Below are positions 1-7,615 of a stretch of 8,000 bases of DNA, piece by piece (the first letter of the stretch is position 1; every line of letters starts with the position of its first letter). This stretch comes from Chloroflexota bacterium (GTDB lineage Bacteria > Chloroflexota > Anaerolineae > B4-G1). The notes beneath the pieces are model-generated. The model worked only from the letters and a program-made list of their open reading frames with translations. It was not told the origin of the DNA and did not search any database. A program made the translations under genes and the position numbers. Location: NCBI GenBank assembly GCA_024232355.1, contig JAAEPW010000826.1, positions 1 through 8,000 of the forward strand, read 5' to 3'.

Positions 1-196
1 ACTTTGAGAAAGGGTGTAAATACAAGACTATGCCCCTATATGTGGGTGAAATTTCGTGACACCCCCAATATATGGAGTGTCGGTCGAAATTCATCGAAAC
101 TTTTACCGGAAACTAAAGATACCCAACAACTCAAAAAGTTTACCATATTGCATTCCAACGATATGCACGGTGATTTCCTGGCCGAGGCGCAAGGTG

Positions 197-205
197 CAGA
201 AGGAG
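197..205. repeat. Left copy of 9-bp target-site duplication
   Basis: The sequence cagaaggag directly abuts the left inverted end of the inserted element. It matches the copy at 318-326 exactly. In the host frame it falls in codons for A-E-G of the nucleotidase. Confidence 0.8.
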
Positions 206-317
206 GTATCATCTCAATATTCTGGGGGACTTGTACCGTAGCCGCGATTTCCATATCGCGTTCCCCTGCGAGGTATGGAAACCTCGTCTACATTACCGCA
301 CCTTATTGAAAAGATAC
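206..317. mobile_element. 112-bp MITE-like element with inverted ends and 9-bp target duplication
   Basis: The element is bounded by gtatcatctcaata (206-219) and tattgaaaagatac (304-317), which are inverted copies matching at 12 of 14 positions. The 9-bp sequence cagaaggag flanks it on both sides (197-205 and 318-326), as expected for a target-site duplication. The interior holds two hairpins whose loops are complementary to each other. It encodes nothing. Its removal with one flanking copy restores the host gene's frame, which independently supports these boundaries. It would have to be moved by a transposase encoded elsewhere, one that makes 9-bp duplications. The IS family cannot be named from this window. 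Confidence 0.85.
243..286. repeat. Paired hairpins inside the MITE-like element
   Basis: Hairpin 1 is cgcgat (243-248), loop ttccat, atcgcg (255-260). Hairpin 2 is cgaggt (269-274), loop atggaa, acctcg (281-286). Each stem is 6 bp and perfect. The two loops are exact reverse complements. The wider arms (238-260 and the reverse complement of 269-291) match at 18 of 23 positions. The block can therefore fold either as two small hairpins or as one long hairpin. Confidence 0.75.
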
Positions 318-1705
318 CAGAAGGAGATCTTGTCGGCGGTCTATCGTTGTTGTCGGGCTACCTTGATCATGTGCGCCGGGAAGAAAATAATGTTCTATAT
401 CTCATTTCCGGGGATATGGTGCAGGGTTCAATGATTGACTCTGAATACAAGGGCGTGTCTACTATGGAGATCATGAACTATTTGGCCCCCGACGTCGTGA
501 CCCTAGGTAATCATGAGTTGGACTATGGGTTGCCCCACCTGCTATTCTTGGAAAAGATGGCCAATTTCCCTATCGTCAATGCTAACCTCTATATCAAAGA
601 ATATCACAAGCGGCTTATGCGTCCTTACCTAATCCTCAATGTGGATGGTTTTGATATCATGTTCATTGGCATTGTCACTGATAGCGTTCTCAACAAGTTA
701 AAGACGAGCGAGATTGGTGCTTTTGTAGGTCTGCAGGATGCCAGTGCCGAGGTGGGCAAGATATGCAATGCCTACAAAGGTGATGATATTGATCTGACGA
801 TTCTTATGACGCATATTGGGTTCGAAGAGGACAAAAAACTGGCAGCGATGCTCGACCCAGAATGGGGGGTGGATATGATCATTGGGGGACACTCTCATAC
901 CATCCTGGAGCAACCGGCAAAAATCAACAACATTCTTATAGCTCAAGCGGGTACAGGCACGGACCAGATCGGGCGCTTTGACATCGTTGCGGATGATGAC
1001 ACAAATAGTATTGTTGAATGGACTTGGCAACTCATCCCTGTGGACGATGATCTGGCTGAGCCGGATAAGGATTTGCAAAAGTTCATTGATTCGTTCAAAG
1101 AGGTTGTGGATCGCAAGTACAACAAGATCATCTGCCGCATGGCACGAAAACTGACCCATCCCAAGCGTGAGGAAGAGACAGCGCTGGGTAATCTGATTAC
1201 CGATATTTTTGCAGAGCGGGCCGGGGCCGACCTCATGCTGTTGGGTAGTGGGGCGATTCGGGGCACAGAGTTGGGGGCTTTGGTGACGTTGGGCGATTTG
1301 TTAAAGGTATATCCCTATGATGGGGTACTGCTTAAACTCGCCGTTACCGGAGCTCAGATTAGGCATATCTTTGAATATATGATGGTTCCCGAAAATCGTC
1401 ACCCGGATGGAAATGTCTACCAAGTCAACGGAAATTTGCGAGCGGTCTATAATGATGCCGAACGGAGCATCAAGACGCTAACCCTGGGCGGAAATCCGGT
1501 GCAGGATGATGAGCACTATATCTTTTGTTTATCCGAGTATCACTTTAAGAATTCTGATACAGCATTGAACCTGAAAAATGAGGACTTGATCGCGTTGGGC
1601 CAGCCCAAGGTTGTTGCCACGTCCACGCAGGATGTACTGGAAGAATATTTGAGTACTCATCAAAGCCTCAACCGTCAAATAGAAGGGCGATTGGTATACG
1701 AATAA
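275..1705 (+). CDS. Residual ORF: 5'-nucleotidase lacking its first metal-binding motif
   Basis: This 476-aa open frame is the downstream part of the interrupted gene and is what an automatic gene caller would probably report. Its ATG lies in the loop of the second MITE hairpin. The first 14 residues (METSSTLPHLIEKI) are therefore element-derived, and native sequence begins about PEGDLVGG. It keeps the GD, GNHE, TH and GGHSH metal ligands and the whole C-terminal substrate domain, but lacks the N-terminal DxH motif that supplies two metal ligands in calcineurin-like phosphatases. An active enzyme is therefore unlikely. A gagg sequence sits only one base before the ATG, too close for a normal ribosome site. 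Whether it is translated at all is unclear. I treat it as a remnant, not a designed gene start. Confidence 0.5.
   Translation: METSSTLPHLIEKIPEGDLVGGLSLLSGYLDHVRREENNVLYLISGDMVQGSMIDSEYKGVSTMEIMNYLAPDVVTLGNHELDYGLPHLLFLEKMANFPIVNANLYIKEYHKRLMRPYLILNVDGFDIMFIGIVTDSVLNKLKTSEIGAFVGLQDASAEVGKICNAYKGDDIDLTILMTHIGFEEDKKLAAMLDPEWGVDMIIGGHSHTILEQPAKINNILIAQAGTGTDQIGRFDIVADDDTNSIVEWTWQLIPVDDDLAEPDKDLQKFIDSFKEVVDRKYNKIICRMARKLTHPKREEETALGNLITDIFAERAGADLMLLGSGAIRGTELGALVTLGDLLKVYPYDGVLLKLAVTGAQIRHIFEYMMVPENRHPDGNVYQVNGNLRAVYNDAERSIKTLTLGGNPVQDDEHYIFCLSEYHFKNSDTALNLKNEDLIALGQPKVVATSTQDVLEEYLSTHQSLNRQIEGRLVYE
318..326. repeat. Right copy of 9-bp target-site duplication
   Basis: The sequence cagaaggag directly follows the right inverted end of the inserted element and matches 197-205 exactly. 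The two copies are 121 bp apart, not a multiple of three, which explains the frameshift in the nucleotidase gene. Confidence 0.8.
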
Positions 1706-3885: not shown

Positions 3886-4998
3886 CTACCCCAACCGCCG
3901 CAGTTGACGAGCGGCTAGGCTCACTCCTGCCACTAAACTCACCAGGGCAAACTCGACCAGTATGAGCAGCGTCTCAGTCCAGTCAGTTGGCCAGGACTGG
4001 AAAAGAACCAGGTCGCGCACAGGGTCCACGGCATAGGTGTTTGGAAACAGTCGGGCAATCCAAAGCACTTGAGCCCAGTTTTGGCGCACCGGGGCTAACC
4101 CGCCGCCGATGAAAAAGATAATCACACCGCCCAAGACGCCGCCTATCGCTCCGGCCATATAGTGCCGCGTACGCATCCCGAGCACGAGACCGACAGCGAT
4201 CCAAAAGAGCACCATCAATCCGGAGAGCAGCCACACGGCCCACAGAAACTGACCCGGCCAGGCACCAGTCCAAAGGTATACGATGAACAGTAGGGCTGTC
4301 CCGGTCACCAGTCCCATAAAAAGCGCGAGCAGCACTTTGGGGAGCAAAACCCACGCCAGCGAGCACGGGGCCAGCCCGTATTCCAGCGTGATCCTGGCCA
4401 GGTGTTCCTTGTACGTGAGTAAAAAGATGTTAAACATCCCCCCAAGGCTCACGCCGAACAACACCAATCCTACTGCGATCAACGGGAACCAGTGAATCAT
4501 CTCCGGGCGCGGGTACTCTTCTGCCAAGGCCAGGGGTGGACCGGGCTGGCCAATCTTTTCATAAAAGCGCCACACGATCTCTGCCGAGTAGATGCGGTGG
4601 TTCTTGGCCCGGTCGTCGTTATAGTTACTAAAATGCATCTCGATGTTGGGATTTTGCTCGGCCTCCAGCCGCGCCGAGAAATCCGGGGGGATGACCCACA
4701 CGCCATCGATGATGTGGGCATGGTATGCGTCCCAAGCTTTGTCTTTAGACAGGTCAGGAACATCGTAATAGGGTGTCCCAAACGGGGATATGACCTCGTC
4801 AATCGTCTGTCGCAAAACATCTCCCCACGGTCCGGTGTCGTGATTGATCACACCGATTTTAAAGGACAATCGTCCGCCAAACAACAACCCAAAGGCAACC
4901 ATCAGGATGCCGGGGGCGATGAATCCTCCCAAGACAGAGATGGGGTCTCGCATCAGAGCTTTGATCTCGGTTGAAAGTAGTATCCAAAAGCGTTTCAT
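3886..4998 (-). CDS. ABC-2 type transporter permease (second of pair)
   Basis: This 370-aa membrane subunit of an ABC exporter has the layout of ABC-2 permeases with a large outer domain. Segments are TM1 about 22-40, a hydrophilic extracytoplasmic stretch about 45-168, then five helices about 170-193, 218-241, 251-273, 281-300 and 343-363. The motif LFPNTYAVDP (317-326), before the last helix, is shared in part with the neighbouring permease (LTPNTYAVDL). The ATG at 4996-4998 is preceded by aggag (read from 5007 to 5003), which lies over the last codons of the upstream gene. Only one base separates the two genes, so translational coupling is likely. It is the last gene of the tetR-ATPase-permease-permease operon. 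The substrate is unknown; drugs, lipids or glycolipids are typical for relatives. Confidence 0.9.
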   Translation of the reverse strand: MKRFWILLSTEIKALMRDPISVLGGFIAPGILMVAFGLLFGGRLSFKIGVINHDTGPWGDVLRQTIDEVISPFGTPYYDVPDLSKDKAWDAYHAHIIDGVWVIPPDFSARLEAEQNPNIEMHFSNYNDDRAKNHRIYSAEIVWRFYEKIGQPGPPLALAEEYPRPEMIHWFPLIAVGLVLFGVSLGGMFNIFLLTYKEHLARITLEYGLAPCSLAWVLLPKVLLALFMGLVTGTALLFIVYLWTGAWPGQFLWAVWLLSGLMVLFWIAVGLVLGMRTRHYMAGAIGGVLGGVIIFFIGGGLAPVRQNWAQVLWIARLFPNTYAVDPVRDLVLFQSWPTDWTETLLILVEFALVSLVAGVSLAARQLRRLG

Positions 4999-4999
4999 A

Positions 5000-6073
5000 T
5001 CACTCCTGCCTTAGCACTCTCCAATGATACGTGAGGAATGCCAATGTTAGCACGCTCACACTGAATAGAGTGAGCGCGAGAATTGAGGCTGAGGGATTAC
5101 CGACTTTGGTGCCATAGTAGCGAAAGAAAAGCAGATCGACGGCGTAGGTGTTGGGCGTCAGGCGGCTGACTTTTTCGTACAATCCCCCAAAACCGGACGT
5201 CAGACCAAATGCGCCACCGAGAATCCAACACCCTATCCCGGCGATCAGTCCCGTCAACAAGGATGGAATGCTGCGACGGAATAAGAGCCCAATGATGATC
5301 CCCAAACTGCTGGCCGTGATCGCCACCGGCAGCAGGACAAGTCCCACCTGCCAGACCGAATCCGGCCAAAAGCTGGTCCGCCAGCCCTGGGCCAGCAGCA
5401 GCACGCCGGCTGAAAGAAGCGCCAAAAACACCAGCCTGGTCAGGCGGGCAGTCAACACCCACGCCGGTGCAATGGGCGCCAGGCGAAATTCCGCGATCGT
5501 GCGGAATTCAAAATCCTGGGCGGTGAGAACCCCACCGATAAAGACCGCTGCCAGAAAGGTCGTCATCGGCAGCATCGCCATGCCAAAGTAGACCGTGTAG
5601 GGCACGTCTGCCGGCAGCCACGGATGCTCCTCGATAGTCACTGCGGCATCGCCCAGCGCCTCGTCCCACAGGCGTAGTGTGGCCGCCGTCAGCCGGTTGC
5701 GCAGGTTCTTGACCTGGTTGCTGTCGATCAAACTGAAGCGTTGCACCGCTGTTGGGACGCCATCGCGGGATTCGACCGCGACGGTCTGGCGGAGTGTCGA
5801 ACTTTCCATCTGCGCTGCTTCCTCCGCGCTCACAATGATGGGGTTGATGTACGGCAAGCCTATGGGTGATCCTACTTCCTGCATCGCCGCCACCAATGCA
5901 TGACCTTTGTCAGTCGTTGGCTGTGTCACGTACACGTCAAACGTTGTCTGCACTAAAACCAAGGACATGAGCAGATACATCAAAGTGGGCTGGAGGATGG
6001 CTACCAGGTGAATGGGCAGCGCGGTGCGAGCTAGTTTGAACTCGTTTAACAAAAGAAGACGAAAGCGGGTCAT
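5000..6073 (-). CDS. ABC-2 type transporter permease (first of pair)
   Basis: This 357-aa ABC-2 exporter permease has TM1 about 20-42, a hydrophilic outer domain about 45-158, and helices about 161-184, 211-230, 242-265, 271-291 and 329-349. The motif LTPNTYAVDL (305-314) marks the region before the last helix. Outside this motif and the general layout it is clearly different in sequence from the downstream permease, so the exporter core is probably a heterodimer of the two. The ATG at 6071-6073 has a gggag ribosome site 6 bp upstream, overlapping the end of the ATPase gene; the intergenic gap is only 3 bp. Expression should follow the upstream repressor and promoter. Confidence 0.9.
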   Translation of the reverse strand: MTRFRLLLLNEFKLARTALPIHLVAILQPTLMYLLMSLVLVQTTFDVYVTQPTTDKGHALVAAMQEVGSPIGLPYINPIIVSAEEAAQMESSTLRQTVAVESRDGVPTAVQRFSLIDSNQVKNLRNRLTAATLRLWDEALGDAAVTIEEHPWLPADVPYTVYFGMAMLPMTTFLAAVFIGGVLTAQDFEFRTIAEFRLAPIAPAWVLTARLTRLVFLALLSAGVLLLAQGWRTSFWPDSVWQVGLVLLPVAITASSLGIIIGLLFRRSIPSLLTGLIAGIGCWILGGAFGLTSGFGGLYEKVSRLTPNTYAVDLLFFRYYGTKVGNPSASILALTLFSVSVLTLAFLTYHWRVLRQE

Positions 6074-6076
6074 AGC

Positions 6077-7009
6077 TCACTCCCTCAACGCCCGGCCCGT
6101 GTGATGCAGGAACACATCGTCTAGGGTGGGCCTCGCGATACGTATGGATTCCAGCCGGTGAGCGGCAGCCACCCGAGTGACCAGTTCACCGGCGATGCGT
6201 TCGGCGTTGCTCACTTCCAGGCGCAATCGATCTGGGAGGACGCGCGTCACCGTCTCTATTCCCAGGCCGCCGAACACCGACTCGGGAGCTTGGATAGTGG
6301 GAGTGGTGCGCAGGGTGACAATATCGCGCCCCAAGTCAGATTTGAGGTGTTCGGGGGAATCCAGCGCCATCGCCTGGCCGTGGTCGACGATTACCAACCG
6401 GTCACACAACGCGTCGGCTTCCATCATGTCGTTGGTTGAGATGATAAAGATCTTGCCCTGGGCCTGTTGCTCCTTGATGTGCTCCCACAGGACGTGCCGC
6501 CCCTGCACGTCCACGCCGAGCGTGGGTTCGTCGAAAAGAATGACGTCGGGATCGTGCAACAACGCGCGTGCCAGGGCCAGGCGGCGTTTCATTCCCCCGG
6601 AAAAGGTCCCCACGCGGTCTTTGCGTCGTTCCCATAGCCGCATCAACCGCAAGAACTCTTCGATCCGCTTCCCTGCACTGGACAGGTCGGCACAGTACAG
6701 CGCGGCGTGATGCCACAAATTGTCCACGGCGCTCAGGTCGGTGTAGAGATTCGTCTCCTGGGGCACCAACCCAATGCGCTGCCGTACCTGGCGCGGCTCG
6801 ACCTGTGGGTCGAAACCCAGCACACGCACCTCGCCGCTGTGCCGCCGCAACAAGCCCGTGATCAGGTTGACGGTCGTCGTCTTGCCCGCGCCGTTGGGCC
6901 CGAGCAAGCCAAAAACCTCACCCGATTCGACTTGAAAAGATAGGTTGTTTACGGCGACATGGTCGCCGAAACGGCGAGTTACGTTTTGTAGCACGATAGC
7001 ACTTGCCAT
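6077..7009 (-). CDS. ABC transporter ATP-binding protein, DrrA-like
   Basis: This 310-aa cytoplasmic ATPase would drive the two adjacent permeases. Visible motifs are Walker A GPNGAGKTT (37-45), Q-loop Q84 (LVPQET), signature FSGGM (136-140), Walker B VILFDE (156-161) and D-loop about 165-167 (GVD). The C-terminal extension ends PTLDDVFLHHTGRALRE, typical of the DrrA/daunorubicin-resistance type of drug and lipid exporters. One oddity is that the switch position, normally His in STHxMxEA, is Asn193 here (STNDMMEADALCD). The signature begins with Phe instead of the usual Leu. The ATG at 7007-7009 has aggaga (7020-7015) 5 bp upstream. The gene starts 9 bp after the tetR stop. An ATPase dimer with the two permeases is the expected complex. 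Confidence 0.95.
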   Translation of the reverse strand: MASAIVLQNVTRRFGDHVAVNNLSFQVESGEVFGLLGPNGAGKTTTVNLITGLLRRHSGEVRVLGFDPQVEPRQVRQRIGLVPQETNLYTDLSAVDNLWHHAALYCADLSSAGKRIEEFLRLMRLWERRKDRVGTFSGGMKRRLALARALLHDPDVILFDEPTLGVDVQGRHVLWEHIKEQQAQGKIFIISTNDMMEADALCDRLVIVDHGQAMALDSPEHLKSDLGRDIVTLRTTPTIQAPESVFGGLGIETVTRVLPDRLRLEVSNAERIAGELVTRVAAAHRLESIRIARPTLDDVFLHHTGRALRE

Positions 7010-7018
7010 AGTTTTCTC

Positions 7019-7615
7019 CTATTGTTTTAGAATGCCGTGCAGGTAAATGTCCACAAAGTGGTCAAAGGCTCCCTGCTGGGATTCGAACAGGAACTGTTCT
7101 CCCATGAGCCACTCGGTCATAAAGTAAGCAAAAAAGAATCCCACAAAAGCCCGAATCAGGGTGGGGGGAGGAATTGGCCGAAGGTCTCCGTTTGCCTGTA
7201 CGAGTTTTTGCGCAAAGCCAATCATCTGCGGAAACAAGCTCTCGAACAGTTGGGGAAAATGCCGCCCCTTGAACTCGACGATCTCGATAAACATCAGTTG
7301 CAGGTCATCGGGGCGACTTTTCAGGGCTGCCAGCATCCTGGCTGCGGCGTCGCGCACCAATTCTTCAGTGGTCTCCCCTTGGGCCGCAGCCAGCGCGGGC
7401 ACAATGTCCAGGTAGGGGTTGCGCTCCACCATGACGGCTGCGAGAATATCCTCCTTGCTGGCAAAGTGGTTATAGATGCCTCCAAGCGCCAGCCCCGCTT
7501 GCTCTGCGATCCGGCGCATCGAGGTGCCGTGATAACCCTGCTCAATGAACAAGCGATGCGCGGCTTGGATGACCCGGTCCCGGGTGCGTTTTCCTTTTGT
7601 TGCTTTGGTGGACAT
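7019..7615 (-). CDS. TetR/AcrR family transcriptional repressor
   Basis: This 198-aa regulator has an N-terminal TetR DNA-binding domain (about residues 10-57). The helix-turn-helix is TSMRRIAEQAGLALGGIYNH (31-50), followed by FASKEDIL, a conserved end of this domain. The remainder (about 60-198) is a helical ligand-binding and dimerisation domain whose sequence is not informative about the ligand. The ATG at 7613-7615 has aaggag (7628-7623) 7 bp upstream. It is the first gene of the operon and is followed by the exporter genes, so the likely circuit is repression of its own operon, relieved when the exporter's substrate or a related compound binds. A perfect palindrome right after the promoter's -10 box is the probable binding site. 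Confidence 0.95.
   Translation of the reverse strand: MSTKATKGKRTRDRVIQAAHRLFIEQGYHGTSMRRIAEQAGLALGGIYNHFASKEDILAAVMVERNPYLDIVPALAAAQGETTEELVRDAAARMLAALKSRPDDLQLMFIEIVEFKGRHFPQLFESLFPQMIGFAQKLVQANGDLRPIPPPTLIRAFVGFFFAYFMTEWLMGEQFLFESQQGAFDHFVDIYLHGILKQ

Follow-up and report, generated by a model that had tools for sequence, protein, structure and literature searches.

A short insert divides a 5′-nucleotidase gene

The window, by which we mean the whole stretch of 8,000 nucleotides of Chloroflexota DNA analysed here, carries near its beginning a 5′-nucleotidase/metallophosphatase gene that is divided by a short insert. The features of the locus are as follows.

115..204, plus strand: 5′ piece of the gene (5′-nucleotidase/metallophosphatase), ending in LHSNDMHGDFLAEAQGAEG and without a start codon at the positions where relatives start
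197..205: target-site duplication, left copy, CAGAAGGAG, 9 bp, exact
206..228, plus strand: left terminal inverted repeat, GTATCATCTCAATATTCTGGGGG, compared with the ends of the full-size elements L124, L261 and L262
238..260, plus strand: REP unit 1 (GTAG, C, stem CGCGAT, loop TTCCAT, stem ATCGCG)
269..291, minus strand: REP unit 2, inverted (GTAG, A, stem CGAGGT, loop TTCCAT, stem ACCTCG)
275..325, plus strand: ATG 275 within the element and the codons in frame with the 3′ piece, from frame analysis
295..317, minus strand: right terminal inverted repeat, GTATCTTTTCAATAAGGTGCGGT on that strand, with its G run eroded
318..326: target-site duplication, right copy, CAGAAGGAG, 9 bp, exact
326..1705, plus strand: 3′ piece of the gene, open to its own stop, with matches to Metallophos (PF00149) and 5_nucleotid_C (PF02872)

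The insert comprises 112 bp (206–317) and contains no transposase gene. Its inverted ends (206–219 against 304–317) match at 12 of 14 positions, and the pairing continues for one base into each copy of the flanking repeat (205/318). Both the perfect 9-bp direct repeat (197–205 and 318–326) and the 14-bp ends with 12 matches that an earlier note had described were recovered exactly. This arrangement of repeat and inverted ends occurs once in the window and in none of 300 simulated first-order Markov windows, and the 8-kb window holds no second convincing end pair. An Rfam search with window positions 1–700 gave no match up to E = 1. The insert had no match among plasmids and only five records at E ~5, which is chance level, among phages, and the gapped shell pattern was found in no viral contig. 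A promoter and terminator scan of positions 1–800 returned 1 and 0 sites, respectively, with shuffle means of 1.8 and 0.6. RNA folding of 197–326 gave z = −2.13, as expected given the palindromes present. Upstream of the interrupted gene, positions 50–91 form an imperfect palindrome, the two overlapping 24-nt arms of which are 71% complementary.

The insertion parts the N-terminal HSNDMHGD motif from the remainder of the protein and supplies a stop, since the frame of the 5′ piece enters the element and ends at 307–309. The note's claim that removing 121 bp restores the reading frame holds: the two frames lie 121 bases apart, and homologous proteins are contiguous at this point. To judge from the reading frame, ATG 275 is a possible start for a product without the N-terminal HSNDMHGD motif.

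Two further features of the window lie well downstream. Close to the beginning of a phospholipase D-like gene, a 27-bp tandem repeat (2365–2475; 4.1 copies, 98% matches) codes for a lysine/arginine-rich repeat, and the minus strand of 3886–7615 carries two ABC-2 permeases, an ABC ATPase and a TetR regulator in an ordinary exporter layout.

Relatives carry the empty site

The homologues P0002–P0004 are 84–87% identical to the query over its whole length and read AEGDLIGG or AKGDLIGG unbroken across the insertion site. When the DNA flanks were aligned separately to four related loci, one from a MAG named Chloroflexi (L001) and three from MAGs named Anaerolineae (L079, L013 and L015), exactly 121 bases were missing in all four relatives tried. 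In L001 the two flank alignments overlap at the insertion site; in L079, L015 and L013 they end short of it, with consistent offsets and frames that continue through. The L079 homologue is 78% identical over part of the protein. The empty-site comparison thus came out as the insertion reading predicts: 4/4 relatives are without the insert in their DNA, and none carries the 121 bp within an intact frame. The ABC permease of the window was found in none of the four genomes of L001, L079, L013 and L015. In the order of L001's genome, represented by 48 genomes, relatives of the 3′ gene piece occur in 4/48 at E up to 1e-60, G007 not being among them.

The four relatives start 9–12 codons before the conserved HSND, three with ATG and one with GTG. 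The window codons that match this start region include no ATG, GTG or TTG except TTG 148, directly before HSND; the other in-frame start candidates of the interrupted gene lie upstream, at 4, 40 and 46. Either a second change in the gene or the use of a different start may lie behind this. The earlier assertion that the rest of the gene is undamaged was too strong: it stands for the 1.38-kb remainder, which is free of stops, but not for the start region, where the start codon of the relatives is missing.

The insert belongs to a family of MITEs in related genomes

A search with the insert through the 48-genome order retrieved a near full-length copy with 84% identity in G007, another with 75% identity in G053, and numerous partial copies. 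With the limit set at E = 1, 31/48 genomes had a match, many of these at chance level. The 84% copy in G007 sits at a different locus, flanked there by an exact 8-bp duplication of its own. Of three genomes in the order to which L079's genome belongs, two gave weak matches only (best E 0.06). Among 396 sampled genomes of the class, a sample that takes in G002, G003 and G004 (the genomes of the Anaerolineae-named loci), the whole insert was matched in six at E up to 1e-9, all within the 48-genome order. The end motif GTATCWTYTCAATAW is more widely distributed, being present in 13/48 genomes of the order (backwards-pattern control, 0) and in 82/396 of the class sample (control hits, 3 in all). 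The family can be abundant: exact forward and reverse ends number 219 and 207 in G008, and 252 and 235 in G177. Further copies, which the earlier note had proposed to look for, therefore exist in related genomes.

These copies commonly lie between target duplications. Among 65 end pairings, taken mostly from loci chosen because they matched, an exact 8-bp duplication was seen in 33 and an exact 9-bp duplication in five, the window included; ten agree at 7/8 positions, and the remaining 17, some of them nested or wrong pairings, agree at no more than 6/8 or run off the contig. Twenty further stretches, picked for a forward end followed by a reverse end, yielded 22 pairings, with an exact 8-bp duplication in 13 and an exact 9-bp duplication in none. 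The duplication norm of the family is thus 8 bp, and that of the window is 9 bp. In G008, 21 copies of 110 bp, chosen by their left end and falling into seven kinds, average 98.5% in pairwise identity (minimum 89%), a similarity that suggests a recent burst. One MITE with its own exact 9-bp duplication (888–974) is nested in another of the same family (L128, 820–1065).

Full-size elements link the ends to an IS66-type transposase

Three full-size elements share these ends, or nearly so. The 1835-bp element L124 (655–2489) has the same ends and the duplication TGCAGATG, and its transposase sequence falls into two frames, both matching IS66 models. L261 (576–2332) and L262 (1467–3223) measure 1757 bp each, have exact 8-bp duplications and contain one uninterrupted transposase ORF of 552 aa each; they are nearly one and the same element, present in two genomes. 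Their ends are one base off the end motif, so the exact-motif count scores none in their genomes. The search for a full IS with the gtatc ends, which the note had expected to make 9-bp duplications, was thus successful, but the duplications of all three are 8 bp long.

The IS66 family typically has GTA-type ends and an 8-bp target duplication, both of which are present in L124, L261 and L262. Its members also have the accessory genes tnpA and tnpB, which are absent in a single-ORF subgroup; L261, with a single transposase ORF in 1757 bp, likewise lacks them. The L261 protein passes the cut-off of PF03050 (DDE_Tnp_IS66; 47.1 bits against 23.1) and falls below that of the NCBIfam IS66 model NF033517 (120.2 bits against 180), and for this reason we call the parent IS66-type.

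Relatives of the L124 transposase half occur in 8/48 genomes: clear ones in G046, G040 and G041, fragments in G034 and G008, and weaker ones in three more. Only three of the 13 genomes with exact ends have such relatives (G046, with fragments in G034 and G008), and none was found in G007, which holds the closest copy of the insert (84%). Incomplete assemblies may account for this sparseness.

The core of the insert is an inverted pair of REP units

Between the inverted ends lie two GTAG-tagged hairpin units that form an inverted dimer with the GTAG tags outside, an arrangement called head-to-head, or HH, in the terms of the available part of PMC3733652. A REP pattern with two free stem pairs was found in 12/48 genomes at 114 places, with none for the control. 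Across 52 units, 103 of 104 free stem cells pair, compared with a shuffle mean of 52.5 and a maximum of 69, although related copies inflate such counts. In one contig, four REP-like units, three of which meet the strict pattern, stand in tandem with 31-bp spacing (G040:C439:12331-12448).

In G007 we examined 46 of 47 strict units together with their surroundings. Eighteen lie in a 121-bp shell with CAGCAATTCCCGTT ends, two lie there together with a third repeated flank, seven lie in that third flank, two are in the IS66-type shell, four surround a RAYT gene, and 13 are in none of these. The IS66-type shell and REP units are combined in seven copies (five in G007, one each in G046 and G053), most of which have one end eroded or missing, and L108 lacks the middle of the core. 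Over the 48 genomes the co-occurrence of REP units and shell is weak (6/12 versus 7/36; Fisher p = 0.06).

The shell with ends CAGCAATTCCCGTT is a second MITE family of G007, about 121 bp long, with a REP pair inside. Of 11 copies of the CAGCAATT shell (L126, L199–L201, L207, L208, L212, L216, L217, L226 and L231), nine have an exact 9-bp duplication, and the copy in L199 landed within another REP pair. Conversely, IS66-type shells enclose other cores, of the ACCACAGAG type in G046 and the CGGTCTCC type in G008, and those of G034 (L117, L118, L120, L121, L140 and L141) contain a different GTAG hairpin core, of the GCGGAATGGTATTCCGC type. Together, these copies show that the cores vary between lineages and that the ends stay constant. 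A third set of repeated flanks surrounds REP units in L197, L199, L206, L209 and L215 of G007 (AGTTGAATGGGATTAC / ATGACCCATTGTGGCTC) and is possibly another mobile shell.

REP units of the same kind adjoin RAYT genes at G007:C33, G014:C189 and G034:C108. A protein of 192 aa in G034 scores 141.6 bits against NF047646 (REP-associated tyrosine transposase; cut-off 80). A REP-like unit whose loop is a variant precedes it, the listed start being 30 bases past the GTAG of that unit. The RAYT gene of G007:C33, which has an internal stop, has two direct REP units on one side and an inverted pair on the other; that of G014:C189, also with an internal stop, stands between two inverted units. RAYT relatives at E < 1e-20 occur in 6/48 genomes, including the query's own G034, and five of the six have REP units. 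The resulting association (5/12 versus 1/36 genomes, p = 0.0024) depends on a threshold picked after the results had been seen and counts G034 itself. Of 12 PF01797 loci, only two (L150 and L151) have TTCCAT-type or variant units; in L145, a third, the loop of the GTAG hairpin is a different one.

Origin of the insert and of its core

Collectively, other copies, full-size elements, target duplications and empty sites in related genomes bear out the MITE reading of the earlier note, in which the inverted REP pair of the core had gone unnoticed. We consider it highly probable that 206–317 is a non-autonomous MITE of an IS66-type insertion sequence, with a head-to-head GTAG REP core, lying in the 5′-nucleotidase gene. 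In the mechanism that we propose, a transposase acting in trans on the ends of the insert would have put it into the gene, and repair of the staggered cut would have produced the 9-bp duplication that is seen there. Judging by the target duplications and by the full-size elements, the enzyme responsible for the insertion was a DDE transposase. The shell, of DDE type, and the cargo, of HUH/RAYT type, belong to two mobile systems, because REP units occur bare, in a second shell with different ends, and adjoining RAYT genes. A RAYT-type HUH transposase probably placed the REP units in the shell, or else they were captured when the MITE formed, since units of the same kind exist bare and adjoin RAYT genes; they would now spread as passengers of the shell.

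That the core is a REP dimer of the kind that adjoins RAYT genes would also fit another idea, in which a RAYT itself put the entire insert in place as a REPIN and both the inverted ends and the 9-bp repeat are coincidental or secondary. However, the known IS200/IS605 members, as far as they are described in the available part of PMC2817692, have neither terminal inverted repeats nor larger target duplications, whereas the insert has both. The same ends and duplications are moreover found around quite different cores without REP units, and on the strength of this recurrence we rejected a RAYT-only origin as extremely unlikely; movement of RAYT type may account for the cargo but not for the insertion. 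It is very unlikely, if marginally less so, that the shell derives from another DDE family and resembles IS66-type ends by chance: the missed NCBIfam cut-off and the scarcity of transposases among exact-end genomes would fit, but three full-size elements, two of them nearly identical, enclose a transposase between nearly the same ends and exact 8-bp duplications. Least credible is an assembly artefact or chance repeat. The locus was seen in one copy, but none of the 300 simulated windows reproduced it and the 84% identical element of G007 lies elsewhere with its own exact 8-bp duplication, and we rejected this explanation on these two grounds.

A different question is whether the MITE broke a working gene or reached one from which the enzyme was no longer made, the start region having already diverged. 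The lack of a start codon where relatives start would be explained by such earlier decay, but the remainder of 1.38 kb has no stop and is 84–87% identical to its homologues, and in-frame starts are available upstream and at TTG 148, so that we regard prior decay as somewhat unlikely.

The preferred reading, an IS66-type MITE with a REP cargo, lends itself to a broader proposal, which we put forward tentatively and with a little less than even confidence. The MITE shells of different DDE transposons might, in Anaerolineae-type Chloroflexota, repeatedly capture and exchange hairpin cores, RAYT-type REP dimers among them, so that one REP population would be spread by two chemistries, namely HUH single-strand transfer by RAYTs and DDE transposition in IS66-type and CAGCAATTCCCGTT-ended shells; the core might be needed or selected in the shell rather than being a random passenger. 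The picture of how REPs spread still depends in part on inference. Should REP dimers travel inside DDE-type MITEs, REP numbers per genome would not have to mirror RAYT activity, and a comparison of shells that have a REP core with shells that lack one would be a natural test of the role of the hairpins.

Comparison with known systems

Among the matches listed, literature on IS66 and MITEs, on Chloroflexi REPs and on Anaerolineae MITEs does not name this IS66-type MITE family. With IS66-type insertion sequences its parent shares the DDE_Tnp_IS66 transposase and also two features that are usual in that family, GTA... ends and 8-bp duplications. Unlike the norm of that family, the parent has a single ORF and is divergent from the NCBIfam model, and the window element lacks a transposase.

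With REPIN/RAYT (REPtron) systems, as the available parts of PMC3116915, PMC3733652 and PMC2817692 present them, the window core and its relatives share units of GTAG plus hairpin, inverted pairs and flanked RAYT genes; unlike those systems, the window has its pair between DDE-type ends that are flanked by a target duplication. The GTAG-15 sequences of Anabaena variabilis are GTAG-tagged REP dimers inside longer palindromes, according to the available part of PMC3733652, and the likeness lies in REP dimers within a repeated palindromic sequence. Section 7 of that source, so far as available, presents the palindrome as a target, without mention of a duplication or parent transposon, whereas here target duplications, empty sites and full-size elements show that the shell is a transposon.

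The closest precedent is QMITE2 of Coxiella burnetii, a MITE that contains a GTAG REP according to the available parts of PMC5896051 and PMC10969869. A MITE with a GTAG REP is thus already known, and the present element adds to that kind. In comparison with QMITE2, full-size IS66-type elements with the same ends are identified here, and the core is an inverted REP pair of a sort that also occurs in a second shell with different ends.
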